From positions 62,001-126,000 of the forward strand of contig DASYCE010000015.1 in NCBI GenBank assembly GCA_036500345.1: 64,000 bases of DNA, given 5' to 3'. The position numbers were made by a program, and so were the translations under genes. The stretch comes from Gemmatimonadales bacterium. Its GTDB lineage: Bacteria; Gemmatimonadota; Gemmatimonadetes; Gemmatimonadales; GWC2-71-9. Position 1 is the stretch's first letter. Each line of letters opens with the position of its first letter. Shown here piece by piece: positions 8,068 to 29,160 of this stretch. The notes under the pieces are model-generated. The model worked only from the letters and a program-made list of their open reading frames with translations, searched no databases and was not told the origin of the DNA.

Positions 8068-8133
8068 TGGATTCCTGGCTGCAGGCGGGGGATCGAAGAA
8101 TACTGCGGCGCCGCGGCTCATACCGCTGGTGAG

Positions 8134-8139: not shown

Positions 8140-8173
8140 TCGGCGACCTCCAACTACCCAACCAGGTGTTCCA

Positions 8174-11100: not shown

Positions 11101-11416
11101 CGCCCCGCGCGGCGGCGTTCCCAACGGTGAAGGCGCCGGCGGTGGGCCCGGAGGACCGGAATCCGCCAACGTCATCAAGATCTTCGACATCATCGGCATC
11201 AAGCCGCCGGCAGGTGGTCGCGGCGGGCGGGGCGGCGGCGGTGGCGGTCGCGGGGGCGCCGGCTCACTGGTCGGCACCGGGGATTATCTCGTCACGATGA
11301 CGGTCGGCGGCCACAGCTACCGCCAGACGCTGCACGTCGAGCGGATCAACGGCGGAAGCGATGTCCAGCAGGGAATCGGCGGCAAGGAGGACAAGGGGGA
11401 CCCGCACCTCCAGTGA
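8174..11416 (+). CDS. Sortilin/VPS10-like multi-BNR beta-propeller secreted protein (copy 2)
   Basis: The protein has 1080 residues. The ATG at 8174 opens directly into a signal peptide (MRQLRSCLLVLVAAAPLGAQG), and AGGTG precedes it. The frame is open further upstream but that part has no protein-like character. Many BNR/Asp-box repeats (YKSTDGGVTW, LYKTIDGGKTW, LWKSTDAGATW) form the predicted double propeller. A conserved cysteine pair occurs in ICGGAQDNGAWCGPSRR. The C-terminal third carries a beta-sandwich and two Gly/Arg-rich tracts (GRGGRGGRGGGPAAGGGRG; GGRGGRGGGGGGRGGAG). It is clearly closer to the copy at 37574 than to copy 1. Its stop overlaps the next gene as GTGA. Catalytic activity is unproven; a binding or scaffold role is possible. 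Confidence 0.88.
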   Translation: MRQLRSCLLVLVAAAPLGAQGLDSAALAGLRWRNVGPANFMGRVSDVAGIPGPSKTLFVAAAGGGIWKSTNNGQTWRPVFDDKRVISMGMLAIAPSDTMQVWAGTGEPNSRNTIEPGAGIYKSTDGGVTWNFMGLKETQHIGRIVVDPRDPNTVYVAALGAAWKANPERGLYKTIDGGKTWKLVKFISDKAGFVDVTLDPRNPDVIYAAAWERLRTPYSLKSGGPGSGLWKSTDAGATWSEIKGNGFPDGVKGRIGLALAPSNPDIVYALTEAADTQKGGGYTPARAPRATGLYRSTDAGKTWTQMNHTDTRPFYYSQVRVDPKNPDRVYFSSTELQVSDDGGKTARNAAQQVHVDDHALWIDPHDPERWVVGNDGGVAITFDRGGNFSQGQNLPIGQFYEVSYDYAVPYNICGGAQDNGAWCGPSRRRTGGVSNAYWFTIHGGDGFYTAQDPTDPDVVYGESQGGSASRVNLKTGEQLGFRKPTWTDQYRKWEDSIAVVRGDPLKAASKETNAAIAKLRAQQRQDSVDLALRFNWNSPFILSPHNPSVIYFGGNRVLKSTQRGENFQLISPDLSKKEQAKIDTSTTWTGGVTLDATGAETYGTVVTLAESYLKPGMLFAGTDDGNVWMSHNDGAAWENLTGRFPGLPDNQVYVNRIEPSHFDTLTFWVAFDNHRRNDFTPYLYVTNDGGHSFKSIVNNLPHDGVGDFVHVIREDPRNQNLLFVGTSISAYVSLDRGATWNRFASSLPSVPVFDLKIHPRDHELIAATHGRGFWIVDVAPLEQMTSATLAAGTYLFEPKTGYQWGEGPALMQSGNGNGQAFFAIPSPAYGADLSYRLTGTETGPVRFVVTNVAGDTLASMNGPSGAGIHDVTWNYQGRVPPAAPAPLTPSERRDSILRAVRAPIVLDSLQRARFDTAAIARARTLLRPAGDSADAAGRGGRGGRGGGPAAGGGRGNGACERPLTMWDSFCARPAEVAPRGGVPNGEGAGGGPGGPESANVIKIFDIIGIKPPAGGRGGRGGGGGGRGGAGSLVGTGDYLVTMTVGGHSYRQTLHVERINGGSDVQQGIGGKEDKGDPHLQ

Positions 11417-12426
11417 CCGAAGCCGATCTCGAGGAGATTCTTTCCGATCCGACACCGGACCTGGTGTCGGATCTGCGCCAGGTCGACGGTGACATCATCG
11501 TCCTCGGCGCTGGCGGCAAGATGGGGCCGTCGCTGGTGCGACTGGCGCGCCGAGCGACACAAGACGCCGCAACGCCGCGGCGGGTCGTTGCAGTCTCCCG
11601 ATTTTCCGATCCTTCGACGCGCGCCGCACTCGACGCGTCGGGGGCGGAGACGATCAGCTGCGATCTATTCGACGCTGATGCCGTCGCTGCACTTCCCGAC
11701 GCGCCGAACGTCGTGTACATGGCCGGCAGGAAGTTCGGCACCCGCGACAACGCTGCCGCGACGTGGGCAACCAATGCGTACCTCCCCGGAGTCATTGCCG
11801 ACCGGTATCGCCAATCTCGCATCGTGGCCTTCTCGACCGGCAACGTCTATCCGCTCCATCCCGCGCCCGGGCCGGGGCCAACCGAGCGCGATCCGGTGGC
11901 CCCGGTCGGAGACTACGCGGTCGCCGCCCTTGCCCGCGAACGGGTGTTCGAATTCTTCAGCGAGCGCCACCGCACACCGATGGCGATTGCGCGACTCAAC
12001 TACGCCATCGAACCGCGATACGGTGTGCTCCGCGACATCGCCGACGCGGTCCGCGGCCGCCGGCCGATCGACCTGGCGATGGGATATGTGAACCTGATCT
12101 GGCAGCGCGATGCCAACGCCGTCGCGCTCCGGCTTCTCCGGCAGTGTGCTGTCCCGCCGTTGATGCTGAACGTCACTGGCGCCGTCGTGCTGTCGGTTCG
12201 CGAGCTGGCCGAAGCGTTCGGGCGCCGATTTGATGTCGCGCCGCGATTCACCGGAGATGAGGCGGCGACAGCGTTGCTCAGCGACGCGTCGGAGTCCGTA
12301 CGACTCTTCGGCGCGCCGCCGGTCGGCATCTCCGAGATGATCGAGCATGTCGCTGAGTGGATGGCTGCGGGTGGTCGATCGCTCGGCCGTCCGACGCATT
12401 TCACCGAGCGCGAAGGGACCTTTTGA
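11413..12426 (+). CDS. NAD-dependent epimerase/dehydratase-like protein (extended SDR), atypical catalytic motif
   Basis: This is a 337-residue Rossmann protein. The dinucleotide motif LGAGGKMG is at residues 31-38 and the strand VVYMAGRKFG near 100. A catalytic-type Ser141 lies in FSTGNVYP. The usual YxxxK is represented by Tyr168 in DYAVAALAR, where the Lys position is Ala172, so proton relay by the normal extended-SDR mechanism is doubtful. The GTG start overlaps the stop of the sortilin-like gene (GTGA), and its own stop overlaps the TTG start of the DHDPS-family gene. The context of lyase, kinase, amidohydrolases and aminotransferase suggests sugar or sugar-acid chemistry. The exact reaction cannot be assigned. 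Confidence 0.75.
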   Translation: MTEADLEEILSDPTPDLVSDLRQVDGDIIVLGAGGKMGPSLVRLARRATQDAATPRRVVAVSRFSDPSTRAALDASGAETISCDLFDADAVAALPDAPNVVYMAGRKFGTRDNAAATWATNAYLPGVIADRYRQSRIVAFSTGNVYPLHPAPGPGPTERDPVAPVGDYAVAALARERVFEFFSERHRTPMAIARLNYAIEPRYGVLRDIADAVRGRRPIDLAMGYVNLIWQRDANAVALRLLRQCAVPPLMLNVTGAVVLSVRELAEAFGRRFDVAPRFTGDEAATALLSDASESVRLFGAPPVGISEMIEHVAEWMAAGGRSLGRPTHFTEREGTF

Positions 12427-13466
12427 CCAGCGTTCGAGCGCGGCTTGCCGACGGACTGGTGATCCCGGCGCATCCGCTTGCGCTCACCGCGCGGCGCACG
12501 CTCGATGAGCGCCGGCAGCGCGCGCTGACGCGCTACTACATCGACGCCGGTGCTGGCGGCGTTGCCGTCGGCGTGCATACAACGCAATTCGCAATGCACG
12601 AGCCGCGTCGCGGGCTTCTCCGGCCGGTCCTGGAGCTGGCCCGCGATACCGTCCGCGACCATCCGTCACGTCGCGCTGCGCCACTCCTGATCGCGGGTGT
12701 CATCGGTGGCCGCGCCCAGGCACGCCACGAAGCGACGCTCGCCCGGACTCTCGGCTACGATGCGGTGCTGCTCGGTTTCAATGGTCTAGGCGCGACAACG
12801 GACGACGCGCTCGTCATTCATGCGCGCGCGATCGCCGAGATCCTTCCGGTGATCGGCTTCTATCTCCAACCGTCGGTCGGCGGCCGAGTCCTCGGCTATC
12901 GCTTCTGGCGCGATTTTGCGGAGATACCTGGTGTGGTTGCGATCAAGATTGCGCCATTCAATCGATACGCAACGCAGGTGGTCATCCGCGCCGTCGCCGA
13001 TTCGGGACGAGAGCGCGAGATCGCATTGTACACCGGAAACGATGATCATATCGTCGTCGACCTCCTGACCCGATTTCCTGCGGGCGCTGGTCGCTCGATT
13101 CAAGTCGTCGGCGGCCTTCTCGGCCACTGGGCGTTCTGGACGCGCCGAGCAGTGGAACTGCATCGACGCTGTCACCGGATTGTCACGGACCGGCGGGCGA
13201 TCCCCGCGCAACTGCTGCAACTCGCGGCGGCGACGACCGACGCGAATGGTGCGGTGTTCGACGCGGCGCACGATTTCCGCGGCTGCATCCCGGGGATTCA
13301 CGAAATCCTGCGGCGGCAGGGACTGCTGGCCGGGACGTGGTGTCTTGATCCGGCGGAGGGCTTTTCACCAGGGCAGATGGCCGAGATCGATCGGGTCTGC
13401 GCGGCGTATCCCGGTCTTACCGACGATGCGTTCGTTGCCGAGCGCATCGATCGCTGGATGAGGTGA
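12423..13466 (+). CDS. DHDPS/N-acetylneuraminate lyase family aldolase or dehydratase
   Basis: This is a 347-residue class I (Schiff-base) aldolase-family TIM barrel. The Schiff-base lysine is Lys175 in GVVAIKIAPFN and the paired tyrosine is Tyr147 in VIGFYLQPS. The usual GGTTGE loop is replaced by GGVAVGVHTTQF (residues 45-56), which points away from true DapA and towards the broad family that includes 2-keto-3-deoxy sugar-acid aldolases and dehydratases. I place the start at TTG 12423, forming TTGA with the preceding stop and with AAGGGA a few nt upstream. An ATG at 12357 would create a 70-bp overlap and add an arginine-rich stretch unlike the family. It ends 9 bp from the convergent amidohydrolase gene. 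Confidence 0.8.
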   Translation: MTSVRARLADGLVIPAHPLALTARRTLDERRQRALTRYYIDAGAGGVAVGVHTTQFAMHEPRRGLLRPVLELARDTVRDHPSRRAAPLLIAGVIGGRAQARHEATLARTLGYDAVLLGFNGLGATTDDALVIHARAIAEILPVIGFYLQPSVGGRVLGYRFWRDFAEIPGVVAIKIAPFNRYATQVVIRAVADSGREREIALYTGNDDHIVVDLLTRFPAGAGRSIQVVGGLLGHWAFWTRRAVELHRRCHRIVTDRRAIPAQLLQLAAATTDANGAVFDAAHDFRGCIPGIHEILRRQGLLAGTWCLDPAEGFSPGQMAEIDRVCAAYPGLTDDAFVAERIDRWMR

Positions 13467-13475
13467 TCCGGTTCC

Positions 13476-14252
13476 TCAGCGGTTGCAGAACGCTCCAAGA
13501 TTCGATGAGAGCAGCCGCTCCCGATCGACGGGCGCAAGCTGCAGCAGATCGATTTTCGCCATCGCTGTCTCCGCCAACCGCAGCGGCACACCGGTCCCGT
13601 AGGTGAAGCGCGAGGTGCCGACGGTGCGCAGCAGCAGTTCGAGGTGATCCTCCGGCGGTCCCCAGATGCAGGAGATATCCCAGAGAATCCGCTCCGCCTC
13701 CTCCGGCGTCGATCCGAAGTGCACCTGCTCGATGAAATCGCGGTCGGCATGGGTGATGATGAAGCGCGTATCGCGAGCAGCGCGGATGAGGGTGCGCACC
13801 GCCCACGTGGGAAGGTCCTGCGCCGCGTCGTTCGGGTGCCGTTGGCGAATGTCTTCCAGGCGCATGCACATCATCACCGGGATTCCGCGCGTCCCCGCGG
13901 CGTCGGCAAGTCGCTGTACCTCGGTCCCCGCTGGAGGAAGCCCGTACCACGTCGGATCGCAGCGCACGGCGGGTACCCCGCGCCGCTGCGCCTCGTCGAG
14001 CACCGACTCCCATCCCGGACGCCCCGGATGAACCGCGGGGATCGGTCGCAACATCGAGTGCGCATCAGCGGCGTGATAGAGGGCGGCGTTGCCGCTCGCG
14101 GGATCGGTCCAGTAGGCGGCGCCTAGATGCGACACCCATGCCGACGTCGCGCCGGCCGCGGCGCAGGTGGCGACGAGCGTTGCGGCGTCCCACGCTCCGA
14201 TGTCGCGGAACGGGTACGTTCCGATAAACGTGTTGACATCGATCTGGCTCAT
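13476..14252 (-). CDS. Amidohydrolase-2-like TIM barrel lacking the metal-binding HxH
   Basis: This 258-residue protein has the amidohydrolase-2 fold: strands leading into ITHADRDF and TYGTGVPLR, plus SCIWGPPEDHLELLL. The N-terminal metal motif, normally HxH after strand 1, reads IDVNTFIG here. The late strand that usually carries a metal-binding Asp reads YGTG. A normal metal-dependent hydrolase mechanism is therefore unlikely; a metal-free lactonase-type or a non-catalytic partner role are options. Its start overlaps the stop of the adjacent amidohydrolase as ATGA, so the two are made in a coupled way and may act together. It is the last gene of the minus-strand operon that begins at 21359. 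Confidence 0.72.
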   Translation of the reverse strand: MSQIDVNTFIGTYPFRDIGAWDAATLVATCAAAGATSAWVSHLGAAYWTDPASGNAALYHAADAHSMLRPIPAVHPGRPGWESVLDEAQRRGVPAVRCDPTWYGLPPAGTEVQRLADAAGTRGIPVMMCMRLEDIRQRHPNDAAQDLPTWAVRTLIRAARDTRFIITHADRDFIEQVHFGSTPEEAERILWDISCIWGPPEDHLELLLRTVGTSRFTYGTGVPLRLAETAMAKIDLLQLAPVDRERLLSSNLGAFCNR

Positions 14253-15046
14253 GCGGTGAAAGCACCCCGGGGAAAGATCGCTGCGGCGTTGCGCCAGCAG
14301 ACGCGCTCGTAGTCCGCCGTGGAAAGGATGCGCTCGAGGTGGCGGAGCTTTGCCCATCCGGTGCACATCGTGATGTCGCACCCCCAGAGAAGTCGTCCCG
14401 CGCCAACCATTGCGATACACGCCTCGAGCATTCCGCCGTCCACGCCGCTTCCCGACAGGTCGATGTAGATGTTGTCGTCGGCGCGGGTTGCGGCCAGTGT
14501 ATGGGCCCATTCGCCACCGCCGCCGATGTGCGCGAGAATGAACGCCACGTCGGGATGGCGGCGCGCCAGGCGGGCGAGTTCGAGACCGTCGGACGCTTCC
14601 TGGGCAGGCCACTCGCGTCGGCGATGCTGCCAGATGTGATGCAGGATCGGTACGCCATGTCGTGATGCTGCCGCGGCGATCTCGTCGACCAGCGGGTCGT
14701 CGGCGCGGCGGCTGGCGGCGAGCTTGATGCCGATCATCCCCGCGGCAAGGCATCGCGCGATCTCATCGAGGGCATGGCGGGTGTAGTTCGGATTGACGCA
14801 CGCGTAGCCGCTGATGACGCCGGGGTGCGCGCCGATCAACTCCAGGAGCGCATCGTTTCCGGTGCGCACATCGTCCGGGGATGGGAAATACGTCGGTGAG
14901 GTCCGTCCCCAGGTGCCGAGTATCGATGCAACATGCCGGGTGATGCCGATCGTGGCGCCGGCCTTCAGCCGAGACGCGTTGCGCTCCTGCCAATCGGCCC
15001 GCCCTCCGGCGGCCTGGTAGAAATGCGCGTGCACGTCGATCAGCAT
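14249..15046 (-). CDS. Amidohydrolase-2 family metal-dependent hydrolase
   Basis: This is a 265-residue TIM-barrel hydrolase. Metal ligands are visible at MLIDVHAHFY (His6, His8), in PILHHIWQH and FILAHIGGGG, and at the terminal Asp in LLWGCDITMC. This matches the amidohydrolase-2 family, which includes sugar-lactonases and ACMSD-like decarboxylases. It is predicted cytoplasmic, with no signal peptide. The start overlaps the aminotransferase stop by 7 nt and its stop overlaps the next amidohydrolase by 4 nt. In this context a lactone- or ring-opening step on a sugar acid is a reasonable guess; the substrate is unknown. Confidence 0.8.
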   Translation of the reverse strand: MLIDVHAHFYQAAGGRADWQERNASRLKAGATIGITRHVASILGTWGRTSPTYFPSPDDVRTGNDALLELIGAHPGVISGYACVNPNYTRHALDEIARCLAAGMIGIKLAASRRADDPLVDEIAAAASRHGVPILHHIWQHRRREWPAQEASDGLELARLARRHPDVAFILAHIGGGGEWAHTLAATRADDNIYIDLSGSGVDGGMLEACIAMVGAGRLLWGCDITMCTGWAKLRHLERILSTADYERVCWRNAAAIFPRGAFTA

Positions 15047-16182
15047 TGCCGGAGAATCTCGTCGAGGGTAGCCATGGCACGGTCAATCTCGTCGTCGCCG
15101 TGTGCCAGCGACACGAAGTTGTAGGCGCTGCGCTTGAACAGGAGTCCTCTCCCTGCGGCGGCGACGGCCATCCGGCGTCCGCATTCGTCGTCGTCAAACC
15201 GGAGGTAGCACATCTCGGGAATGCCGCTGGCGACGACCCCGTCGTGGCGTTCCGCCAGCACCGTGAGTCCGCGCCAGAGCCGGTCACCGCGGGCTGCCAG
15301 GTGCTCGGTGACCCGTTCACGCTGAAAGACGCCAAGGACGGCGGTCGCGGCGGCGAGCGCGACGAACTCCGTTGCAGCGGTCGAGGAAATCCAGGTCTGT
15401 GCGATTGCCCGCATCACCTCGCGCGATCCTCCCACAGCCGCGAGCGGAAACCCGTTGGCAAGCGCCTTTCCGATCACCATGAGATCCGGGACCACTCCCC
15501 AGCGCTCCGCCGCACCACCAATCGCAAGGCGGAACGCCGTCTTGATCTCATCAAAGACGAGCAACGCGCCGCAGCGTGCGCTCTCCTGGCGGAGTGTCTG
15601 CAGCCATTCGAGAGTGGGAGGGGCTTCGATGACCGGTTCGACGACGACGCACGCAAGCGAGTCGCCTGCCGCGCGGATGGCATGAATCGCCGCGTCGCAG
15701 TCGTTGAACGGGACACTACCGTACGACGCGCGCACCGACTGCGGTACGCCCTGCGCGTCGCTGCACCAGTCGAGCCAGCCGTGGTAGCCGCATCCCAGCA
15801 CGCGATCGCGACCGGTTCGCACCCGGGCGAGGCGGACGGCAGCCGCAACCGCCTCGGCGCCGGTCTTGAGAAACCGGATCTCCTGCATCCAGGGAATCGC
15901 GGTACCGAGGAGCGCCGCAAGCTCTTCTTCGTCGACCGGCGAGAGCGCCCCGGTGACGCCGCGATCGATGGCGTCGAGCGCCGCCGCAGTGACGGCCGGA
16001 TGACCGTATCCGAGCGCCACGGAGCCCAACCCCATGATGAAGTCGAGGTACTCGCGCCCGTCCCGGTCGCGAACGGTGCACCCATGACTCGATTGCATCC
16101 GCAACGGGATCCGGGTCGCGTCAGCTGCGAACAGGACGTCCGGTCGTTTGCTGCCGGTCGACGTGAACCCCGCGACGCCCAT
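15040..16182 (-). CDS. Class III aminotransferase (glutamate-1-semialdehyde aminomutase-like)
   Basis: This 380-residue PLP enzyme belongs to fold type I, subgroup II. Landmarks are YHGW at 133-136, the cofactor-binding Asp211 in LVFDEIKTAFR, and the Schiff-base Lys239 in VIGKALANGFPLAAVGG. The closest recognisable type is HemL-like, but it lies in a glycan-catabolic operon rather than with tetrapyrrole genes. It may therefore transaminate or isomerise a sugar-derived ketone or aldehyde. The start at 16182 makes a TGATG overlap with the heparinase-like gene; a more upstream ATG would sit far inside that gene. No export signal is seen. Confidence 0.8.
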   Translation of the reverse strand: MGVAGFTSTGSKRPDVLFAADATRIPLRMQSSHGCTVRDRDGREYLDFIMGLGSVALGYGHPAVTAAALDAIDRGVTGALSPVDEEELAALLGTAIPWMQEIRFLKTGAEAVAAAVRLARVRTGRDRVLGCGYHGWLDWCSDAQGVPQSVRASYGSVPFNDCDAAIHAIRAAGDSLACVVVEPVIEAPPTLEWLQTLRQESARCGALLVFDEIKTAFRLAIGGAAERWGVVPDLMVIGKALANGFPLAAVGGSREVMRAIAQTWISSTAATEFVALAAATAVLGVFQRERVTEHLAARGDRLWRGLTVLAERHDGVVASGIPEMCYLRFDDDECGRRMAVAAAGRGLLFKRSAYNFVSLAHGDDEIDRAMATLDEILRQC

Positions 16183-18902
16183 CAGGCGAGCTCGATCTCG
16201 CCGAGGTGCGCGGGGTCGTGCCGATCGCCGCGCAGATAGGCCCACCCCGGTCCGCCGCTCCAGATCAGCTGCCCCGAACGCCGCACGCGATCGGGCCGCA
16301 TCTCGTTGACGATCAGGTCAAAGCCCGGCCGATCGTTGCGCAGCAGATCGACAAGCCCGGCCGCAGGGATCCGCAGCGTGACACAGTAGCCGTTGTCGGT
16401 TCGAGTCCAACGACCCGACGGCGCTTCGCGAACGGTCGTACCAATGGAGCGAGTCACGACGGCGCCGCCCTCCGCGAGGCGAACCAGCCAGCCGTCGGTG
16501 TGCTTCCCGGGCAAGTTGGAATAGATCTGCAGCCCGTCGGCGTTGATGTCGTCCGGTTCGTTGTCGAGCAGCAAAGGTGCGGCACCTTCGGGACGGAGGA
16601 TCATCTCGTCCTTGACGACGTTCACGGCGAGATACAGTTCGTGATCCGACCAATTGAGGTACGCCGTCGCGGAGAACGACTCGGGGCCAGCGTAGGCGAC
16701 TTCCGTCCGGTAATACTGATGCTCGTCGTCGAGGGCCAGCGGCATCCGGCGATTGAATCCGGCAAGTGTCCCGTCGAGCGACGGCGGCGCGTCGATCCAT
16801 ATCGCGGTTGCCCTGGTCGGCACCGGTCGGTCGAGGACATACGTCGCGCGACCGAGCGGCGCAGCACGACCTCCGCCGAGGGTGACACGTCGCGCGCCGT
16901 GCGCGATGGTCACGCTCGACGGTCCGGGTTCGATCGTAGTCGTGAGGTCACCTTGCTGAACGTGAACCGTCGACGCTGAGACGTCGAGAGCGGTCACCGT
17001 ACCGCCGAAGTCGATCACCGCCGCCATCACGGCATGATCGGCGTTCTGACGACGAATCAGAAACCGACGCGGCGAGCGATCACCGGGCAGCCCGGGGCCG
17101 TGGGCTCGCAGCAGATCACCGTCGCCGGCGAACCACGCGCGTAGAGCCTTCGAACCCTCCATCGCAGTGATGAGCGTATGTGCACCAGGGTCGCCGTCCC
17201 CCTCGCATCGCTCGACATCGTAGAGAAAGTCGTTGGTGCTCGGCTCGGCGATCCAGCGCCCGGATGGTTCCAGTGCAATGTCGCCGTGCAAGTGCCATGG
17301 AAGCTCGAACCGGTGCGACACGCTCGACTCGAACGTGACCAGGTCGACGAGCCAGTCGGGTCCGATCACGATGCGGCGCCGTGCGTCGCCCCACGATGCG
17401 GCACACCACGCCCAGTCATCCTCCGTCGCGAATGCTTCGCACCGCGCAGCTTCGACCCGCCGTTGATCGTGGCCATCCTCGAGCGGCGCATTGTGCGCCA
17501 TCGTCGACCGGTACCAGAAGAGATCCTGCATCACGTACGATCCGGCGCCCGGATCGGCAAGCCAGTGGACGCCATCCGCGTGCACGGTGAGATGCAGGCG
17601 ATCCGGATGGCCGTGCCCTCCGCCCGTGGTACCGCCACATTCGAGCGACACGTAGCGGTCGCCGCGCCGGAAGACCGCCAGTCCCTGGTCTTCGAGGAGA
17701 CGGGTATGTCCGCTCCACGGTTCCGCAGGAGCGGGGAGTTCCGGTGGAATCGTCAGCAGCGCCCACCACGAGAGCTCCGACCGACTCCGCGCGGCGGGAA
17801 GCGGCAGGCCGGCGTCGTGGAGGTACGAGTCGTACGTCGCCTCCTCGCGCGGAGGTGAGGCGTAGAGGGCCGCAAGCCACTCGGTAACGTGGCCCGGTGC
17901 GCGATCGCCGAGGGCAGCGCGCCCCGCTTCCCACGTTTCGACATACGCAGGGTGCGCCAGCGAGACGCCGTACCGGGAATCCTTCCGCGCCGGAAATGTC
18001 AGATCGGGGAGTGAGGTGTCGGCGGGAGCCATGAGGGCCTCGGCGAGGTGCGATGCCACTGCGTCGTCATCAAGCAGTGGTGCACCAGCCGCCGCGGCCC
18101 ATTGCAGCCCGACCATCAGTCCGCGCATCGCGAAGAGGTGGTAGTTCTCCCCTTCGAACCACATTCCGTCGCGCAGGAATCCGGTGCCGAGGAGGCCGAG
18201 GAGCCCGGTGCGCCCCTCGATCGCGGTGAGCGCGAGTTCTTCGTCACCAAACCAGACGGCGACCGCGGTCAGCGCTGCACTGTTCCACGCCTGGCGGTTG
18301 GACAACCCCTCGTTGAATTCACCAATGAGGGTCGCGGCTTCGTCCGCGATGGCGCTGATCCGCTCGATATCGTCCTCATCGAGGAGATCAAGCTCGCGAA
18401 GGATGAATGCGGCGGAGAGATAGTCGAGCAACCAGATCGACTCGAGATAGGTCGAGAAGAAGAGGTGCGTCGGCCCGAGAACGTTGTCCTGGTTGGGGAG
18501 CTCGAAATAGAGCGTGTAGTACGCCGCCAGGATGTCGCGCGCGCGTACACCGGCATCCTCTCGCCCGGTCATCGCGCACACCGTTGCCAGATGTGCCGCG
18601 CGCTCGGCGACCCAGAGGTGCTGCGCGCGGGCCCAGTGGGCATGATGGCGAGGACCGCTGAACGAGGTGTCGCAGACCGGGCAGCGATGACGCTCCGGGC
18701 TCCACGGATCGAAGGCGAGCGGGGCGCCATCGTCGGGGCAGACGCCGCCATCCCGCGAAAGGAGCGCCTTGGCCTGCGGGACGATCGGCATCCGGTCCAG
18801 CACGGGAGTCGCCCGCTCCACCAGCCGGTCGCGGAGGAGCGACAGATCCGCGGACCTATCGATCAGCTGGCGGCGTTCGGTCAGGGCGTCGAGATCTAGC
18901 AT
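16182..18902 (-). CDS. Heparinase II/III-like protein with N-terminal zinc ribbon and C-terminal CBM9-like domain
   Basis: This is a 906-residue predicted polysaccharide lyase-type protein. A zinc-ribbon-like segment comes first (GGVCPDDGAPLAF, then HRCPVCDTSF). An all-helical toroid follows (about residues 70-380), with LPNQDNVLGPTHLFFSTYL and FEGENYHLFAMRG. The heparinase II/III beta-sandwich has LECGGTTGGGHGHPDRLHL and YVMQDLFWYRSTMAHN. The last 200 residues resemble a CBM9/DOMON-like sandwich (SLDGTLAGFNRRMPLALDD, DGLQIYSNLPG). No signal peptide is visible, so cleavage of an imported oligosaccharide in the cytoplasm is inferred. The start is uncertain: ATG 18902 is used, and an ATG at 18962 would overlap the kinase gene by 20 bp. 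Substrate could be a uronate-containing oligomer. Confidence 0.8.
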   Translation of the reverse strand: MLDLDALTERRQLIDRSADLSLLRDRLVERATPVLDRMPIVPQAKALLSRDGGVCPDDGAPLAFDPWSPERHRCPVCDTSFSGPRHHAHWARAQHLWVAERAAHLATVCAMTGREDAGVRARDILAAYYTLYFELPNQDNVLGPTHLFFSTYLESIWLLDYLSAAFILRELDLLDEDDIERISAIADEAATLIGEFNEGLSNRQAWNSAALTAVAVWFGDEELALTAIEGRTGLLGLLGTGFLRDGMWFEGENYHLFAMRGLMVGLQWAAAAGAPLLDDDAVASHLAEALMAPADTSLPDLTFPARKDSRYGVSLAHPAYVETWEAGRAALGDRAPGHVTEWLAALYASPPREEATYDSYLHDAGLPLPAARSRSELSWWALLTIPPELPAPAEPWSGHTRLLEDQGLAVFRRGDRYVSLECGGTTGGGHGHPDRLHLTVHADGVHWLADPGAGSYVMQDLFWYRSTMAHNAPLEDGHDQRRVEAARCEAFATEDDWAWCAASWGDARRRIVIGPDWLVDLVTFESSVSHRFELPWHLHGDIALEPSGRWIAEPSTNDFLYDVERCEGDGDPGAHTLITAMEGSKALRAWFAGDGDLLRAHGPGLPGDRSPRRFLIRRQNADHAVMAAVIDFGGTVTALDVSASTVHVQQGDLTTTIEPGPSSVTIAHGARRVTLGGGRAAPLGRATYVLDRPVPTRATAIWIDAPPSLDGTLAGFNRRMPLALDDEHQYYRTEVAYAGPESFSATAYLNWSDHELYLAVNVVKDEMILRPEGAAPLLLDNEPDDINADGLQIYSNLPGKHTDGWLVRLAEGGAVVTRSIGTTVREAPSGRWTRTDNGYCVTLRIPAAGLVDLLRNDRPGFDLIVNEMRPDRVRRSGQLIWSGGPGWAYLRGDRHDPAHLGEIELA

Positions 18903-18942
18903 TGCAGGAATGTTAGCGGGATCGATCGGCGTGGATGGCAGG

Positions 18943-19950
18943 TCATTCGGCCCGGACGCCATCCCGCGCCCAGACAACGGGAAGGACGCGGGCGCCGGCG
19001 GCCTGTGCGGCGGCGATCGCCGGGGCAGGGTTGTCGGGGACGATGAAGAACATGGAACCACCGGCTCCGGAGCCAGCGGCCTTTCCGCCCACGGCGCCGA
19101 CACGCTCCATCGTCTTCTCGAGCGCCGCCATCGCGGGGGTCCGCATTGCAGCGTCGAGTTGCAGCTGATGCAGCCAGTTGGCCTGCAGCACGCGCCCGAC
19201 GCCGATGAGATCGCGCGCCAGGAGCGCCTCCGCCATCGCCGTCGCACACTCAGCCATGCCGCGCAACGCACCGGCGACGGCGCGGTCACCGGCCGCATAT
19301 GCGGCCATGACACGAGTGATCGTCTGGCCGGAAAAGCGTGATTGGCCGGTGTAGCAGAGCACGGTGTGTCGGGCGAGCGTCGCTGCGAAGTCCGGATCCA
19401 GTGCCAACGCGGTCGCTTGGGTGCCGTCGCGATCAAAGGCGAGGAAGTTGAAACCACCGAGAGCCGCGGCGAACTGATCCTGCTTTCCTCCCGCGACCGC
19501 AGCGTCGATCGTTTCGAGCGTCCACGCTGATTCCGCGGTCTCGATCGGCGACGCAACGGAATCGGTCGCCGCATTGCACGCGTGTACCAGCGCGACGCTG
19601 AGTGCTCCCGAGCTGCCGAGCCCCGAACCAGCCGGAGCCGTGGCGGATGTCCGGAGCATGCATGGCCCGAGGCGTGCGCGGCCGATCGCCGCTTTCGGCA
19701 ACGTGAAGACGCCGTCACTGGAGAGAGCCGTGACATCGGATCCGGTACAACGACTGCCCACATCGCCGGCGACCAGTTCGTAGCGATCATGGTCGCACCG
19801 CAATTCGACGCGTGTGCGCAGGTCGATCGCGGCGTTCACGACCCGGCCGCGCTCGGTGGTCGCAAACGGCGCGACATCGGTCCATCCGCCGGCGAAATCG
19901 AGACGCACCGGTGCGGACACGACGATCGATTGCTTGTCGCGCATCGTCAT
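18943..19950 (-). CDS. GHMP-family sugar kinase (fucokinase/heptose-kinase-like)
   Basis: This is a 335-residue GHMP kinase that phosphorylates a small hydroxylated substrate with ATP. The N-terminal strand SAPVRLDFAGGWTD (residues 12-25) resembles L-fucokinase and D-glycero-D-manno-heptose 7-phosphate kinase. The ATP loop is PAGSGLGSSGA (106-116) and the C-terminal glycine motif is GSGAGGSMFF. No nucleotidyltransferase domain is fused, unlike bifunctional Fkp. The start at 19950 overlaps the stop of the transporter lipoprotein (ATGA); an ATG at 19965 is less likely. It sits between an importer component and a lyase, so it probably activates a sugar released from the imported glycan. Fucose is plausible because a GH29 fucosidase is encoded about 10 kb away. 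Confidence 0.82.
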   Translation of the reverse strand: MTMRDKQSIVVSAPVRLDFAGGWTDVAPFATTERGRVVNAAIDLRTRVELRCDHDRYELVAGDVGSRCTGSDVTALSSDGVFTLPKAAIGRARLGPCMLRTSATAPAGSGLGSSGALSVALVHACNAATDSVASPIETAESAWTLETIDAAVAGGKQDQFAAALGGFNFLAFDRDGTQATALALDPDFAATLARHTVLCYTGQSRFSGQTITRVMAAYAAGDRAVAGALRGMAECATAMAEALLARDLIGVGRVLQANWLHQLQLDAAMRTPAMAALEKTMERVGAVGGKAAGSGAGGSMFFIVPDNPAPAIAAAQAAGARVLPVVWARDGVRAE

Positions 19951-21359
19951 TGCGCCACGTGCCATTGTGTAATGGTGGGGAGTTCGCCGCGAAGATCCAT
20001 TTGCACGCCGAGGATCCGCCGGTTCATCCCCTGCACGCCACGCGCATCGTAGAGAAACGCCGCGGGGACACTGTCGGCGAAGAACTGGAGCTGCTGCGCG
20101 ATCGTCGCCGGCGGCGTGATCCCGGTGGCGGTGAGCAGCGGCGCGAGCTGACCCAGTCCGGGATCGCCGGTGATCCCCATGACCGCGGCGTCAAAGTCAT
20201 GCGTCACGCCCTGCACGCGATCGAGGAACGATGTCAGTTCGAGTTGTCTGATGGTCATCGTGACACCGGCAGCCGCGAGCTGCGCCTGCACCATCTGTTC
20301 GAGGGCGGCTTCGCCGCTGCCGACCGTGAGCAGTTCGAACTGGATCCTCCGATCGCGCAGCGTGCGCCGGGCAACGCCGTCGGCGCCGGTATCGGCGGTA
20401 GAGGTTGCCGTCGGGCCGAACGCTGGCGTCCCGAAACCGTAGAGATAGCCGTTCACGATGGTGCGGCGATCGAGCACCTGCGAGATGGCGCGACGCATCG
20501 CCACGTTATCGAACGGCGCTCTGCGAGTGTTGAAGACGACGGCGTAACTGAGCAGGAGCGGATATTCGATCACGGCAAGGCGTGGGTCGCGCCGCACGAA
20601 TGCCGCGTGCGCCGGCTGAATGCCGGCGAAGTCGAGTTCGCCGGAGGTGAGTGCTGCGAGCTTCGTGGTTGGTTCGTCGACGACGGCGATTACCAGGCGG
20701 TCGATCCGCGGCGGCCCACCGAGCTCTGCGGGGAAGTGGGGATTGGCGGCGAACACCCAGCGTCGATTCGGCTGGTGCGATACGAACGAAAACGGACCGT
20801 TCCCGACCGGCGTCACGTTCCAGGCGGCACGCCGCAACTGGCCGTGCGGTATCGTGTCGAGCAGATGGGCCGGGAGCATGGCGAGGTCGGTCAACACGTC
20901 GCCGATGCCGTGCTGCGGCCGGGTATATGAGATCCGGAGCGTGGAGTCGTCGAGTGCAACGGCCGTGTCGAGCGCCGCGAGTTCGCTCTGGCGAGGATAT
21001 CCGGTCGCAGGATCCCGGGCGGCCAGTAGCGTCCAGGCAGCGTCTCGTGCAGTGGTCGGCGCGCCGTCGTCCCACCGCACCGCCGAGGTAAGGTGCAGCG
21101 TCAGCGCGGTCGAGTCCGGCGACCACTCCCAGTGGCGCGCGAGGTATGGGGTGACCTGCATCGCGGAATCGTACCGGACCAGCGTGGTAAGGAGCACGTA
21201 GCGCTGCACCTGCTTCGCCAACGGGTGCGCCGTGAGGAGCGGGTCGATGCTCTGCAGATCGGCGCCGGAGGCAAAGACCACGGTGGCGCCGCGGCGTGTC
21301 GCGAGGCCGGAACAGCCGGCGATGAGCACGGAGATGGCGAGGAGGCAGCGGCGGCGCAC
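19947..21359 (-). CDS. ABC importer substrate-binding lipoprotein, family 5 (DppA/OppA type)
   Basis: This 470-residue lipoprotein has a positively charged start (VRRRC), a hydrophobic segment and the lipobox LIAGC with Cys16 as the lipidation site. The body has the SBP family 5 layout: SIDPLLTAHPLAKQV, YLARHWEWSPDSTALTLHL, VRWDDGAPTTARDA, PVGNGPFSFV and DNVAMRRAISQVLDR. It captures oligopeptides or oligosaccharides for the permeases encoded divergently at 21381. I place the start at GTG 21359 because it opens the lipoprotein signal directly; upstream in-frame sequence is antisense to the permease gene. No ribosome site at a proper distance is visible, and TAGACT at 21365-21370 suggests leaderless transcription. 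It is the first gene of a six-gene minus-strand operon. Confidence 0.85.
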   Translation of the reverse strand: MRRRCLLAISVLIAGCSGLATRRGATVVFASGADLQSIDPLLTAHPLAKQVQRYVLLTTLVRYDSAMQVTPYLARHWEWSPDSTALTLHLTSAVRWDDGAPTTARDAAWTLLAARDPATGYPRQSELAALDTAVALDDSTLRISYTRPQHGIGDVLTDLAMLPAHLLDTIPHGQLRRAAWNVTPVGNGPFSFVSHQPNRRWVFAANPHFPAELGGPPRIDRLVIAVVDEPTTKLAALTSGELDFAGIQPAHAAFVRRDPRLAVIEYPLLLSYAVVFNTRRAPFDNVAMRRAISQVLDRRTIVNGYLYGFGTPAFGPTATSTADTGADGVARRTLRDRRIQFELLTVGSGEAALEQMVQAQLAAAGVTMTIRQLELTSFLDRVQGVTHDFDAAVMGITGDPGLGQLAPLLTATGITPPATIAQQLQFFADSVPAAFLYDARGVQGMNRRILGVQMDLRGELPTITQWHVAQ

Positions 21360-21380
21360 CCTCAAGTCTACATTCTTCGC
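21360..21380. promoter_or_regulatory. 21-bp divergent promoter with overlapping -10 boxes
   Basis: On the plus strand TACATT (21369-21374) lies 6 nt before the permease ATG. On the minus strand TAGACT (21370-21365) lies 5 nt before the lipoprotein GTG. The two hexamers overlap by 2 bp. Both distances fit leaderless transcription starting at the start codon. No clear -35 is seen, since that region lies inside the opposing gene. Confidence 0.45.
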
Positions 21381-22361
21381 ATGTCGAGAGGCCCGGCCGT
21401 CGCGCTGATTCGTGCAGCCGCCGTCATCCTCGGCGTGGTCTCGCTCACCTTTGTCCTCCTTCATGTCGCTCCTGGCGACCCGGTCACGCGACTCCTCGGG
21501 CCGGCGGCAACGACCGCGCAGGTCGCGGCCGTTCGCCACGCGATGGGCCTGGACCGGCCGCTCATCGTCCAGTACGTCGCCTGGATCGGTCGCGCGCTCC
21601 ACGGCGATTTCGGCACGAGCATCTCCACCGGTCGGCGAGTCGCCTCGCTCCTTGCCGACGCGTGGCCGGCAACCGCGGCGCTCGTCGCCCTCTCGCTCAC
21701 GCTGACCTGGCTGATCGGCATCGCCGTCGGCGCCTGGCAGGCCAACGCGCGACGGCGCAATCTCGAGGGCGTCGTCACGGCGGTTGCGGTCGCGTTCAAT
21801 GCCATGCCGGCGTACTGGCTCGCGCTCGTCCTCGTCATGATCTTCACCTACTGGCTCCGGGTGCTTCCGTCGTTCGGAGCGAGCGGGCTCGATGCCGATT
21901 ATCTCGGAGTCGGCGGGCAGATCAGCGACCGGTTGCGGCATCTGGCACTGCCGCTTCTGACGTTGACGCTGATCGGCTTTGGCGGCGCAGCCCGGTTCGT
22001 GCGCGCATCAATGCGCGACCTGCGCGATGCCCCGTTTCTCGTCGTGGCGCGCGCGAAGGGCGTCGGTTCGCTGCGCACGGTTGTCCGGCATCAGCTTCGC
22101 AACGCCCTGGTCCCCGTCGTCACCCTCCTCGGCCTCTCGCTACCGGCGTTCTTCTCCGGCACGGTGTTCGTGGAGTCGGTGTTCGCGTGGCCCGGCGTCG
22201 GGCAGCTGATGGTGCACGGGGTCCAGGCGCGCGACTACCCCGTCGTGATGGCGGCGGCGACGGTGAGCGCGGTGCTGGTGGTCGCCGGCAACCTTGCGGC
22301 TGACGCGCTCGGCGAAGTCGTCGACCCGCGGACGCGCCGCGACGGTGACACCGTTGGCTGA
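21381..22361 (+). CDS. ABC importer permease, DppB type
   Basis: This 326-residue inner-membrane permease has about six predicted membrane segments. Family signatures are the N-terminal VAPGDPVTRLLGP and MGLDRPLIVQYVAWI, and the ATPase-contacting EAA-type loop FLVVARAKGVGSLRTVVRHQLRNALVP. The extracytoplasmic ending VESVFAWPGVGQLM is typical of DppB/OppB. It pairs with the second permease, which it overlaps, and with the divergent binding lipoprotein. No ATP-binding subunit gene is linked in this window. A TACATT box 6 nt before the ATG and the lack of a Shine-Dalgarno suggest leaderless expression. Confidence 0.9.
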   Translation: MSRGPAVALIRAAAVILGVVSLTFVLLHVAPGDPVTRLLGPAATTAQVAAVRHAMGLDRPLIVQYVAWIGRALHGDFGTSISTGRRVASLLADAWPATAALVALSLTLTWLIGIAVGAWQANARRRNLEGVVTAVAVAFNAMPAYWLALVLVMIFTYWLRVLPSFGASGLDADYLGVGGQISDRLRHLALPLLTLTLIGFGGAARFVRASMRDLRDAPFLVVARAKGVGSLRTVVRHQLRNALVPVVTLLGLSLPAFFSGTVFVESVFAWPGVGQLMVHGVQARDYPVVMAAATVSAVLVVAGNLAADALGEVVDPRTRRDGDTVG

Positions 22362-23190
22362 ATCACGGCGGCTGCGCGGCGACATCCCGACGATCGTCGG
22401 CGCGACCATTCTCGCCGCCTGCGCCGTCGCCGCGATCATCGTGCCGATCGTCGCGCCATCGTCGATGCCGGCGAACGTCGTCGCGAGCCGCTTCCTGCCG
22501 CCGCTGGCGCGCGACGCCGGACACGCGATGCACCTCCTCGGGACCGATCGTCTCGGTCGCGATGTCTGGTCGCGTCTCTGGGAAGGGGCACGGATTTCCC
22601 TGAGCGTCGGCCTGCTCACGATGGCGATCTCGCTGCTGATCGGTGTGGCCGTCGGCGCGGTGGCAGCCTTCGTGGGTGGCGCGGTTGCAACGGCCCTTCT
22701 CGCGGTCACCGATTTCGCCCTCGGCGTGCCGCGCGTCGTCCTCCTCCTCCTTCTCGCCGCGTTGTGGCCGCCGAGCGCGCTGCAGGTCATCGCCGTTCTT
22801 GGCGTCACCGGCTGGATGCCGATTGCGCGGCTGGTGTACGCCGATGTACGCGCCCAGCTCGGTCGGCCGTATGTCTCAGGTGCCGAAGCCCTCGGTGCGG
22901 GAAGGTTCCGGCTCCTCGCGGAGCACATCGTGCCGCACATCGCACCGCCGGTCCTCGCCGCCGTCACGCTCGGTATCGGCAACGCCATTACCCTTGAGGC
23001 GGGGCTATCGTTTCTCGGACTTGGAGTGCAGCCTCCGGCGGCCTCATGGGGGTCGTTGATCGCATCGGGCAGAGATACCGTCGTCAATGCGCCGTGGGTC
23101 GGACTGGCGCCCGGGATTGCCCTGGTCGTCGTGGTGGTGAGCTGTACCCTGATCGCCGACGGACTGCAGGAACGCTCGCAGTCCGCGTGA
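22345..23190 (+). CDS. ABC importer permease, DppC type
   Basis: This 281-residue permease has about six membrane helices. It shows the DppC-type HLLGTDRLGRDVWSRLWEGAR segment split by the first loop, the EAA-type loop YVSGAEALGAGRFRLLAEHIVPH, and the closing EAGLSFLGLGVQPPAASWG. The partner of DppB-type permeases usually carries exactly these motifs. The start is not certain: GTG 22345 (17-bp overlap with the preceding gene) is used, and TTG 22354 would also work. Neither has a clear ribosome site. The stop is followed by a 73-bp gap before the UPF0182 gene. Confidence 0.87.
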   Translation: MTPLAESRRLRGDIPTIVGATILAACAVAAIIVPIVAPSSMPANVVASRFLPPLARDAGHAMHLLGTDRLGRDVWSRLWEGARISLSVGLLTMAISLLIGVAVGAVAAFVGGAVATALLAVTDFALGVPRVVLLLLLAALWPPSALQVIAVLGVTGWMPIARLVYADVRAQLGRPYVSGAEALGAGRFRLLAEHIVPHIAPPVLAAVTLGIGNAITLEAGLSFLGLGVQPPAASWGSLIASGRDTVVNAPWVGLAPGIALVVVVVSCTLIADGLQERSQSA

Positions 23191-26511: not shown

Positions 26512-29160
26512 TCAGGATGCGGTGAAGCGGATCAGCACTGAAATGATCGCACGCGGCTCGGCGATGAATGGGACGCCCGCGGCGCCAAATGGCAGCGACG
26601 ACACGATGGATTCGTCGGCGCGAATCCGGGCGGCGCCGGCAACTGCGGACGTCAGAACCCAGCGGCCGCGAACAGGAGCCGACGTCGTATTGTAGCAGCG
26701 GAGCACGATCCCCTCCTCGGACTCCGCCACCTTGCAGCTGGTGAACACCAGTCCCGGCCCGTCGAGCGTCACGCCAATCGGCTGCTCGGTCGAACTGCCG
26801 CCGCTGCAGTTTCGGATGAATTCCGGTTGGAGCGGCAGGAAGAGGTCTTCCCACAGCTCCTCCAATGCGTCGACCCGGCGTGCATCATCATGAGCGATCG
26901 GTGCGACCGCGAATTCCAGGAGGTGCGGACCGAGCTCCTGCGCATCGGGTGTTGCGATCGGCCATCCCGCGTGGCCGGGGCGTGCGCGAAGAGTGTTCTT
27001 CGAGAGCTCGCCGACCGATCGGATCAGCGTGAGCCACACCGTCTCGTCGCGCCATTCGTATTCGAAGAAGCCGGGCGCGAACAGCGCGATGCCGCGATTG
27101 CCGGCGCTCACGGCGGCGAATCGCTGCGCCGGTGCCGTCGGCAGCGGATGCTCATCGGGGAAGTCGTTCACGTCGACTTCCACTGATTCCCGTTCCTCGA
27201 CTCCGAATGCGCTGCCGCTGACGACGGTCGTCCGTGCATTCACCGGAATGCTGGTGCGGAGTCGATGATCAGTCGCGTCATTGTCGAGTTCGAATCGAAC
27301 CCGCAGTGCGGGAGCATCGGCGTGAAGGATGAGAATGCGACGCGCGCGGATGCGGCCACTCGGGCGAGTGATGGTCAGGGTCGATTCGATCGCGCCGACG
27401 AGGGGGCCCGCGCCGATCACTCGCGCCACGGTTGACGAGGCGCGAATCGCCGTCCCGGCGATGATCTCAGGCGTGTAGCTGTCGCCGGCGTCGGTTTCGC
27501 TGACGAGCCCCAGCAGATCCCGATAGCGCTCACCGCTTCGCCGATCGATCAGGTCGACGCGCCCATCGCGCCCGCAATGCACTTCAACAAAGCGATTCGC
27601 GAGTCGCCCGGAGTTGACTTCGAGATCGGTCGGTTCCGGCACTGCGGTGCTCCTGCGGAGCGTAAGCGCGCTGAGGCCGAGTCCCGGCGTTGCCGGGGCT
27701 TCGAACGCGATCGTCGACCGGTCGACCTCGTCGAGATCGGGATAGTGGCGCGACGACTCGATCCGCTCAAGCGCTGGTGCGACATTGAGCAATTGCACCG
27801 GAATCGCACTGCCATCCGGCGCGACCAGTTCGATCGGCGTGAATCCGCCGTCGCCGCCGGCGATTCTTCCTCCCGGTGGGCCAACCAGGATGTCACGGCG
27901 GAACGCCGTCGCCGTCGCCGTCACAATCCCGCCTCTGCGCCGCGCCGCGGGGTTCCAGAGGAGCATGACCGGCCGCGTCCTTGTCGGCGTCGTCCGCGCC
28001 TGGTCGGCATCGTGGTGCGCCATCTTGTGGAGCGCGCGGCGCGAGATCTCGCTGGCGATCGCCGCAACTGCGGTCAATCGGGTCGCCTGCTCCTGCGCGA
28101 CGGCATCGCTGCTGCACCCGCAGAGCGTGTCGTGGAACTGGCACTCGAGCAATGCGCGCCGCGCCGATCGAGCGAGCTCGTGCACGTCGACGCGATTGAC
28201 GCCGAACGCCAATGCCGCCAGCGGCTCGGCCTTGCGGAGCAGCAGAAGCTCCGCAGCGCCGAAGCGGCGCAGCGCCCGCGTGCGAATCGCGCGGGCACCC
28301 GGGAGAGTCCAGGTGTGACCGAACGACCATCGTCGCTCTCCGGCTATCGTTGGAATCGCTGCACCGGACACCGCGCCGCGCACTGCCGCGAAATACTCGG
28401 TGAGGGAGCTCAGCCGGAAGGTTGCGCCGGGATCCGCTTGTTCGAGCGCCTCGCGAATGGCGCGGGCGCTGATGGGCGGGGCGTGATGATCAGCGCCCAC
28501 GAAGACCGCAACGTCCGAGGTTGCCGAGCGACGCATGAGTGCCGGTCCGATCCGCGCCCACTCATCTGCGATTGTGGCCGGCGATTCAAGCAGCCCCGAA
28601 CCGATTTCATATCCGGCGGGCGGGAGGTGGTAGACGAGCGTGCGCGATCCATCGGCGCCGGACCACCAGTAGAGGTCGGTGTCGCTTCCGGTCGGAGACA
28701 CCGCCCCGCGCCAGATGACAGCGTTCTCGATCCCGAATTCCCTGGCAAGCGACGGAAAGACTGACGGATGGCCGAAGGCATCGGGGGAATAGAGCACGTC
28801 CATCCGGTGACCAGCACCGGCAGCATCACGCCGCCCTTCGATCAGGTTCCGCACCAGCGATTCACCGGACGGGATCAGTTCGTCGGCGAGGATGTACCAG
28901 GGGCCGATCTCGAGTTGGCCCGATCGCACCAGCGATTCCGATCGCGGTTGCCATTGCGGCACCGTAGCGTGGACGTCGTCAAGGATGACGGTCTGCCCAT
29001 CGAGTAGAAAGCGGGCGTCGCGTTCGCGTTCGAGAAGAGGGATCAGATCGGCGAAAGCGGCGACCAGGCGGGCACGGAACGCGGCCGCCGGGAGATACCA
29101 CTCGCGATCCCAGTGCGTGTGGCAGATGATGTGGAAGGTGAAGCTGCCGCCGTCGCTCAC
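26512..29160 (-). CDS. Glycoside hydrolase family 38 alpha-mannosidase
   Basis: This 882-residue retaining alpha-mannosidase begins HIICHTHWDREWY (residues 10-22), the GH38 zinc-binding His/Asp motif. The candidate nucleophile Asp127 lies in LYSPDAFGHPSVFP. The three-helix-bundle middle domain (ECQFHDTLCGCSSDA) and large C-terminal beta domains follow. There is no signal peptide, as is common in GH38 enzymes that act on imported or recycled mannosides. The GTG start at 29160 overlaps the stop of the aldo/keto reductase gene as GTGA. It belongs to a set with a fucosidase and a reductase, suggesting processing of a fucose- and mannose-containing glycan. Confidence 0.9.
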   Translation of the reverse strand: MSDGGSFTFHIICHTHWDREWYLPAAAFRARLVAAFADLIPLLERERDARFLLDGQTVILDDVHATVPQWQPRSESLVRSGQLEIGPWYILADELIPSGESLVRNLIEGRRDAAGAGHRMDVLYSPDAFGHPSVFPSLAREFGIENAVIWRGAVSPTGSDTDLYWWSGADGSRTLVYHLPPAGYEIGSGLLESPATIADEWARIGPALMRRSATSDVAVFVGADHHAPPISARAIREALEQADPGATFRLSSLTEYFAAVRGAVSGAAIPTIAGERRWSFGHTWTLPGARAIRTRALRRFGAAELLLLRKAEPLAALAFGVNRVDVHELARSARRALLECQFHDTLCGCSSDAVAQEQATRLTAVAAIASEISRRALHKMAHHDADQARTTPTRTRPVMLLWNPAARRRGGIVTATATAFRRDILVGPPGGRIAGGDGGFTPIELVAPDGSAIPVQLLNVAPALERIESSRHYPDLDEVDRSTIAFEAPATPGLGLSALTLRRSTAVPEPTDLEVNSGRLANRFVEVHCGRDGRVDLIDRRSGERYRDLLGLVSETDAGDSYTPEIIAGTAIRASSTVARVIGAGPLVGAIESTLTITRPSGRIRARRILILHADAPALRVRFELDNDATDHRLRTSIPVNARTTVVSGSAFGVEERESVEVDVNDFPDEHPLPTAPAQRFAAVSAGNRGIALFAPGFFEYEWRDETVWLTLIRSVGELSKNTLRARPGHAGWPIATPDAQELGPHLLEFAVAPIAHDDARRVDALEELWEDLFLPLQPEFIRNCSGGSSTEQPIGVTLDGPGLVFTSCKVAESEEGIVLRCYNTTSAPVRGRWVLTSAVAGAARIRADESIVSSLPFGAAGVPFIAEPRAIISVLIRFTAS

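Follow-up and report, generated by a model that had tools for sequence, protein, structure and literature searches.

The 64,000-nucleotide (nt) stretch of Gemmatimonadales DNA analyzed here (the window) carries a gene cluster that, on balance, we favor reading as a chromosomal import-and-breakdown locus for a glycoside containing a uronic acid and/or an amino sugar, and we rate it as a locus for glycan catabolism whose combination of enzymes is unusual. Its body is an operon of six minus-strand genes (13476-21365), transcribed in the order SBP, GHMP, HEP, AT3, AMH1, AMH2, with permease genes diverging from it, a GH38 glycoside hydrolase gene nearby, and the genes EPI and DHDPS converging on AMH2. 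Gene content, synteny, a nearly all-or-none inheritance, conserved catalytic residues, and a double-length haloarchaeal protein were computed; every reaction, the order of the reactions, and the substrate of the locus are what we infer. The genes are as follows.

19947..21365, minus strand: SBP, a family-5 solute-binding lipoprotein (Pfam and NCBIfam), the operon's first gene, with a TTG or GTG start
18943..19965, minus strand: GHMP, a GHMP kinase, nearest to HddA/WcbL-type heptose-7-phosphate kinases and then to L-fucokinase
16182..18902, minus strand: HEP, a 906-amino-acid protein with a heparinase II/III (PL17-like) fold and a CBM9-like C-terminal domain
15040..16182, minus strand: AT3, a short class III pyridoxal-phosphate enzyme, nearest to glutamate-1-semialdehyde (GSA) aminomutases and aminoglycoside C-6' aminotransferases
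14249..15046, minus strand: AMH1, of the Amidohydro_2 family (Pfam), with conserved metal residues
13476..14252, minus strand: AMH2, an amidohydrolase-fold protein without HxH (fold, and profile match to AMH1)
21381..22361, plus strand: DPPB, a permease (NCBIfam), divergent from SBP
22345..23190, plus strand: DPPC, a permease (Pfam and NCBIfam)
23264-25990: a UPF0182 gene, between DPPC and GH38
26512..29556, minus strand: GH38, an alpha-mannosidase-like enzyme, with UPF0182 intervening between it and DPPC
11413..12426, plus strand: EPI, an extended-SDR, epimerase-like protein, an optional member
12423..13466, plus strand: DHDPS, a class I aldolase/dehydratase-like protein, an optional member

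A sample of 298 genomes of the phylum Gemmatimonadota was searched with HEP, AMH2, AMH1, and AT3. HEP was matched in 117 genomes, AMH2 in 115, and AMH1 in 113. AT3 was matched in 118 at E ≤ 1e-85, 112 of these being strong; before counting, six genomes whose matches (E 3e-89 to 5e-97) represented other aminotransferases were excluded, as were second matches in two more. All genomes with HEP and all those with AMH2 belong to one order, the window's own (172 sampled genomes; membership was read from the listing of UPF0182 matches). Within this order, the four genes were all present in 110 genomes, all absent from 52, and partly present in 10, so that 162 of the 172 had all or none. HEP and AMH2 occurred together in 51 genomes of the window's family (HEP only, 4; AMH2 only, 1; neither, 9) and in 61 genomes of two other families (HEP only, 1; AMH2 only, 2; neither, 43). 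Fisher p values, which ignore phylogeny, were about 1e-34 to 1e-42 in the order, 2e-7 to 6e-14 in the window's family, and 1e-26 to 1e-28 in the two other families. The original prediction had named co-occurrence outside this genome as the check on its pathway, and the core genes were indeed found elsewhere, syntenic and nearly all-or-none in the order.

Of the ten partial genomes, four (G132, G027, G215, and G106) were examined at the locus. G132 had a full-length HEP and an AT3 stump running into an EPI stump, an apparent deletion scar (L170), and G027 retained AMH1 and AMH2 beside an AT3 stump; both look like block deletions. G215 had AMH and AT3 genes without HEP, and its contig stopped shortly past AT3, so that the lack of HEP may be due to the assembly. 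G106 is taken up below.

Synteny was followed in 39 HEP loci from 39 of the 117 genomes with HEP, after one of 40 stretches taken (a continuation of another, without a match, L051) was dropped. AT3 was present in 38 loci, SBP in 37, DPPB and DPPC in 36 each, AMH1 in 32, AMH2 in 31, and GH38 in 27. In five of the seven loci without AMH1, AMH2 lay on the same contig at a distance of about 12 kb; the other two were the G132 deletion and G106. SBP and DppB were divergent in all 35 loci in which both were delimited, with a gap below 80 nt in 33, and gene order was retained at 33-40% HEP identity. GH38 also lay behind UPF0182 in the congeneric genomes G012 and G141. The interval first proposed for the cluster, 11413-23190, leaves out GH38 at 26512-29556, which recurs in 27 of the 39 loci. 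In 23 of 39 loci, GHMP shared the strand of HEP; these were 23 of 24 loci of the window's family and 0 of 15 of a second family. EPI was found in six loci, once as a stump, and DHDPS on the divergent strand in five; an aldolase split as a general step, as had been proposed, was not borne out, and because the pair is optional, aldol cleavage is not the general last step. From these counts, the core is SBP-HEP-AT3-AMH1-AMH2 with DppB-DppC, GH38 is usual, GHMP is typical of one family, and EPI and DHDPS are optional.

A second scan, overlapping partly with this sample, used one short AMH1 peptide pattern on named genomes and kept 80 of 91 loci; a single short pattern cannot show absence elsewhere. 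The names began with Gemmatimonad-, except for two Halovivax and one labelled only as bacterium, and nearly all these loci derive from metagenome-assembled genomes. Many were on short contigs; AMH2 was found in 79 and AT3 in 75 of the 80 loci, and among the 36 that reached 18 kb or more, HEP was in 26, SBP in 26, and GH38 in 16.

The arrangement described originally, a coupled six-gene minus-strand operon with divergent DppB/DppC and convergent EPI/DHDPS genes, was confirmed by Pfam, NCBIfam, and gene overlaps. With gene starts of our own choosing, AMH1 and AMH2 overlapped by 4 nt, AT3 and AMH1 by 7 nt, and GHMP and SBP by 19 nt; HEP and AT3 had one base in common, and a gap of 40 nt separated HEP from GHMP. 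Pfam identified SBP_bac_5 in SBP (2e-58), which by eye also has a lipobox-like LIAGC, the GHMP N and C domains in GHMP (4e-11 and 3e-9), Hepar_II_III_C in HEP (1e-9), Aminotran_3 in AT3 (2e-46), Amidohydro_2 in AMH1 (3e-27), BPD_transp_1 in the DppC-like gene (5e-26), and Epimerase in EPI (2e-12). The CBM9-like C-terminus of HEP (22.4 vs 23.4 bits) and the DHDPS domain (21.8 vs 22.1 bits) scored slightly below their cut-offs. No Pfam match was obtained for AMH2 when a 425-amino-acid frame containing it entire (13476-14753) was scanned. The DppB-like gene was compared with NCBIfam models alone; its product and the DppC-like protein matched Opp/Dpp/Nik permease models below equivalog cut-offs. 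Codon-position gene calling missed several genuine genes, and Pfam-checked frames were used instead; all-against-all clustering of open reading frames gave antisense frames too, as expected at 67% GC.

HEP had no signal peptide by eye. The best solved relatives of its profile were PL17 alginate lyases (9irq, E 1e-23; 4nei, 7e-20), and its model (pLDDT 87) returned the PL17 fold in Foldseek (E 7.5e-22; TM 0.56 by query and 0.68 by target), an (alpha/alpha) toroid plus beta-sandwich as in the heparinase II-III superfamily, with a CBM9-like end (E 3.5e-7 to 1i82). Residues N202, Y254, H430, H432, D450, and H470 were invariant in 23 of 23 HEP sequences. H432, D450, and H470 align with what we take to be the PL17 zinc ligands. 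For the catalytic residues, parts of two lyase structure papers were drawn on (PMC12336832 and PMC12088678). In Alg17c, Tyr258 and His413 serve as base and acid, and Asn201 with His200 as neutralizers (PMC12088678, Table 4). Y254, H430, and N202 of HEP align with Tyr258, His413, and Asn201, so this catalytic set was present in all 23 sequences, and all 23 had Ser201 at the position of His200, the second neutralizer of PL17 alginate lyases. In the part of PMC12088678 drawn on, His at this position is common to alginate lyases and Asn is found in most glycosaminoglycan lyases studied; Ser201 therefore favors neither group and is a hint only. Among plasmid records, HEP had weak matches only, mostly enterobacterial.

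AT3 matched GSA aminomutase (GSAM) at E 4e-74 and C-6' aminotransferases at 8e-67 over nearly the same length, with K239 and D211 present in 20 of 20 sequences. The GHMP profile matched an HddA/WcbL-type kinase over its full length (E 2e-64). In NCBIfam, AT3 scored 195 bits against the 527-bit equivalog cut-off of HemL (TIGR00713), GHMP 110 against 600 bits for HddA, and GH38 309 against 1138 bits for mannosylglycerate hydrolase. Because no curated equivalog cut-off was reached, names beyond the superfamily are unjustified for AT3 and GHMP. Elsewhere in the window's genome, two adjacent genes, with no others found, encode the oligo_HPY domain known from Dpp-type ATPases, and the SBP/DppBC importer presumably uses this DppD/DppF-like pair.

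AMH1 is expected to be a metal enzyme from its residues: H6 and H8 (HxH) were conserved in 17 of 18 sequences, and H137, H173, and D224 in 18 of 18, the exception (L048) having a frame that appears broken into two pieces. HxH was found in 0 of 19 AMH2 sequences, which have instead an invariant EDxRQRH motif (E133-D134-x-R136-Q137-R138-H139). The AMH2 model (pLDDT 92) was an ACMSD-type TIM barrel by structure search, and kinship to amidohydrolases was indicated by this fold and the profile match to AMH1. To our knowledge, AMH2 would be unusual as a conserved protein of amidohydrolase fold that lacks the metal motif.

Nine plasmid records had an AMH1 match, and the five haloarchaeal ones were examined. 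On all five, the AMH1 relative was a protein of about 560 amino acids (L079:8001-9677, L080:12001-13689, L081:12001-13683, L082:12001-13698, and L083:12001-13695). Profile comparison, carried out on one of the five, mapped AMH2 to the C-terminal half of the L079 protein with a probability of 99.7%, and the other four proteins aligned with it end to end at 57-71% identity. Each of these five proteins has the E-D-x-R-x-x-H motif; beside the double-length protein in L080 lies a second one, 26% identical, without this motif. On each of the five records, an AT3 relative was found (E 1e-88 to 6e-97), its distance to the double-length gene ranging from less than 1 kb up to about 28 kb. Since AMH and AT3 occur on these plasmids without a close HEP, they seem to constitute a separate core. 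Taken together, the haloarchaeal stretches also hold sulfatases, Gfo/Idh, MR_MLE, SIS, BadF, GatZ, and beta-helix proteins, along with M14 peptidase-like and carbon-nitrogen hydrolase genes. The Halovivax stretch L084 is similar to L080.

The EPI and DHDPS pair was found in other settings. The window's DHDPS was 54-59% identical to proteins in the 15 matches listed out of 20 plasmid records, from Actinomycetota, Bacillota, Planctomycetota, and Alphaproteobacteria, and in seven of seven plasmid stretches examined, an EPI relative (44-53% identity) lay beside the DHDPS relative or one gene off. The pair is a portable module; the seven stretches had no HEP, AT3, or AMH annotation. Among 11 aligned EPI proteins from five phyla, Tyr168 was present and the Lys of YxxxK, which we take to be the canonical extended SDR motif, was missing in every one. 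K175 of DHDPS, presumably the Schiff-base Lys, was invariant in 11 of 11. Some relatives of the window have a different DHDPS-like gene after AMH2, recognized mainly by eye. A candidate unknown family at this place (U554) was discarded on inspection by eye as an out-of-frame stretch over AMH2 followed by this second DHDPS-like protein; it had no Pfam match and a weak KDG-aldolase match. An MR_MLE gene near some family loci was also set aside as a pathway member, since it passes the menC cut-off.

In the route that we propose, SBP, DppB, and DppC, powered by the DppD/DppF-like ATPases encoded elsewhere, would import an oligosaccharide, from which GH38 could remove alpha-mannosyl-type residues. 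HEP would then cut at a uronate by beta-elimination, as its residues and modelled fold suggest, and GHMP, where present, may phosphorylate the released sugar. AT3 would shift or remove an amino group on the monomer, and AMH1 (with metal) and AMH2 (without metal) may act as one two-part amidohydrolase in a hydrolytic or decarboxylating step. The products would reach central metabolism through branch-specific tails, EPI and DHDPS here and another DHDPS-like protein in some relatives. A more specific version is tentative and rather unlikely: on a 2-amino-uronate, 2-acetamido-uronate, or related amino-sugar glycan, elimination by HEP would free an open-chain alpha-amino aldehyde, the GSAM-like AT3 would shift or remove its amino group, as GSAM does in glutamate-1-semialdehyde, and the composite AMH1-AMH2 barrels would finish the route. 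The AMH1-AMH2 and AT3 core would then be common to Gemmatimonadota and haloarchaea, with other glycan enzymes replacing HEP in the latter. The interpretation first put forward is thus partly supported: co-occurrence speaks for it, but GH38, the missing metal motif of AMH2, and the double-length protein of haloarchaea had escaped it. The lactonase, kinase, transaminase, and aldolase reactions that it proposed, and the sequence in which it placed them, were guesses.

Several observations weigh against an import-and-breakdown locus for such a glycoside. In none of the 15 second-family loci was the kinase in the operon. GH88 is the usual partner of intracellular uronate lyases; the window's genome had no GH88 match (the search did not extend to KduI, DEH reductase, or similar enzymes), so the standard step for unsaturated uronates would be unavailable. 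Dermatan sulfate epimerase, at rank 13 in the structure search, has the HEP fold too, and epimerization by HEP is possible for this reason. A close HEP was absent from the haloarchaeal records, with no match in four of five and weak matches only, hundreds of kb off, in the fifth; HEP may therefore act on another molecule than AMH and AT3. A flippase in one haloarchaeal stretch and DegT sugar aminotransferases in three would suit glycan synthesis. The cluster neighbor UPF0182, taken as a control, was found in 171 of 172 genomes regardless of the presence of the block, and this control is weak because nearly all genomes have the gene, its fragments and additional copies were counted, and order membership came from the same listing. 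G106 has a full-length HEP (45% identity) without cluster partners in 20 kb (L050), and homology search found no AMH1, AMH2, or strong AT3 anywhere in its genome; this lone intact HEP counts against an obligatory link. G090, G130, and G296 were also HEP-only by genome search.

Biosynthesis or remodelling of a cell-surface glycan, with HEP as a uronyl C5-epimerase or editing lyase, AT3 installing an amino group, and GHMP activating a heptose-like sugar, would accommodate some of these points but seems doubtful. HddA/WcbL-type kinases are the closest solved relatives of GHMP, C-6' aminotransferases are close to AT3, the fold of HEP is shared with dermatan sulfate epimerase, and some haloarchaeal stretches carry annotations for a flippase and DegT sugar aminotransferases. 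However, no glycosyltransferase or nucleotidyltransferase match was found among 20 recurring frames scanned from the Gemmatimonadota loci, where an importer and the GH38 hydrolase recur instead, and the haloarchaeal stretches hold sulfatases and sugar-catabolic families too. We judge it unlikely, and rank it one place lower, that the locus serves uptake and catabolism of a peptide or other nitrogenous small molecule, with AT3 and AMH1-AMH2 as the pathway and HEP and GH38 as separate neighbors. AMH2 is present in 112 of the 117 HEP genomes of the phylum sample, SBP_5 importers serve oligosaccharides as well, and sugar enzymes are also found in the archaeal stretches, although the importer is of Dpp type, the haloarchaeal AMH and AT3 genes lie without a close HEP near M14 peptidase-like and carbon-nitrogen hydrolase genes, and the intact HEP of G106 stands alone.

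Ancestral gene order retained by chance, with no joint function, is very improbable in our estimate. In its favor, synteny in many loci extends to neighbors such as TrmJ and a molybdopterin/cytochrome/NrfD set, but the four core genes are jointly present or jointly absent in 162 of 172 genomes, two partial genomes resemble block deletions, the AMH pair remains within about 12 kb where other genes intervene, and AMH1 and AMH2 parts are joined in one haloarchaeal protein. Import and breakdown of a uronate- and/or amino-sugar-containing glycoside remains the reading that we prefer.

Other genes were noted around the loci. A TrmJ-like RNA methyltransferase gene (SpoU) lies between AT3 and HEP in many relatives (L042:7713-8612 and others), though not in the window or in three congeners examined, and was treated as a passenger. 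In some family loci, a 385-amino-acid protein (L048:16424-17578) stands beside AMH2 and the DHDPS-like gene; it had no Pfam or NCBIfam match and looks by eye like a dihydroorotate-dehydrogenase-type barrel. To the left of the cluster, window positions 2533-11416 hold a Vps10/BNR-type protein (Pfam), a second large frame, which we assume to be Vps10-type without having searched it against families, and a GH31 gene. In the relatives' loci, GH31 was found in 0 of 39 and the two Vps10-type genes in 1 and 0 of 39.

Gemmatimonadota are common in soil and water, and a catabolic block in 110 of 172 genomes of an order would point to a widespread, as yet unnamed carbon or nitrogen source. The AMH1-AMH2-AT3 core, which haloarchaea share, is a small enzyme set that can be tested. 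The original prediction knew of no described pathway with this enzyme set, and none was found in open-licence PMC papers among the matches listed.

Compared with known systems, the PL17 oligo-alginate lyases of alginate catabolic operons are closest to HEP by sequence and fold, with the catalytic Asn, Tyr, and His kept; unlike Alg17c, HEP has Ser201 for His200 and Arg203 for His202 and adds a CBM9-like domain, and the window's genome has no GH88 match. AT3 resembles GSA aminomutases by profile but scores at most 206 bits against GSAM cut-offs of at least 398. GHMP resembles the HddA/WcbL D-glycero-D-manno-heptose-7-phosphate 1-kinases over its full length, with a score far below the cut-off. 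The ACMSD/Amidohydro_2 decarboxylases and lactonases are matched by the AMH1 profile and the AMH2 fold, whereas AMH2 differs in having HxH in 0 of 19 sequences and its own invariant EDxRQRH. The haloarchaeal glycosaminoglycan loci described in the consulted part of PMC13260240 (2026) are likewise plasmid-borne glycan loci for polymers of uronate and amino sugar, and they center on a PL8 lyase accompanied by KduI/KdgK; the word "amidohydrolase" occurs 0 times in the main text of that paper, and the part consulted does not describe the AMH1-AMH2 and AT3 stretches found here. The plasmid EPI and DHDPS pairs differ from that of the window in lying, in several cases, beside other importers, Gfo/Idh proteins, or sugar isomerases.

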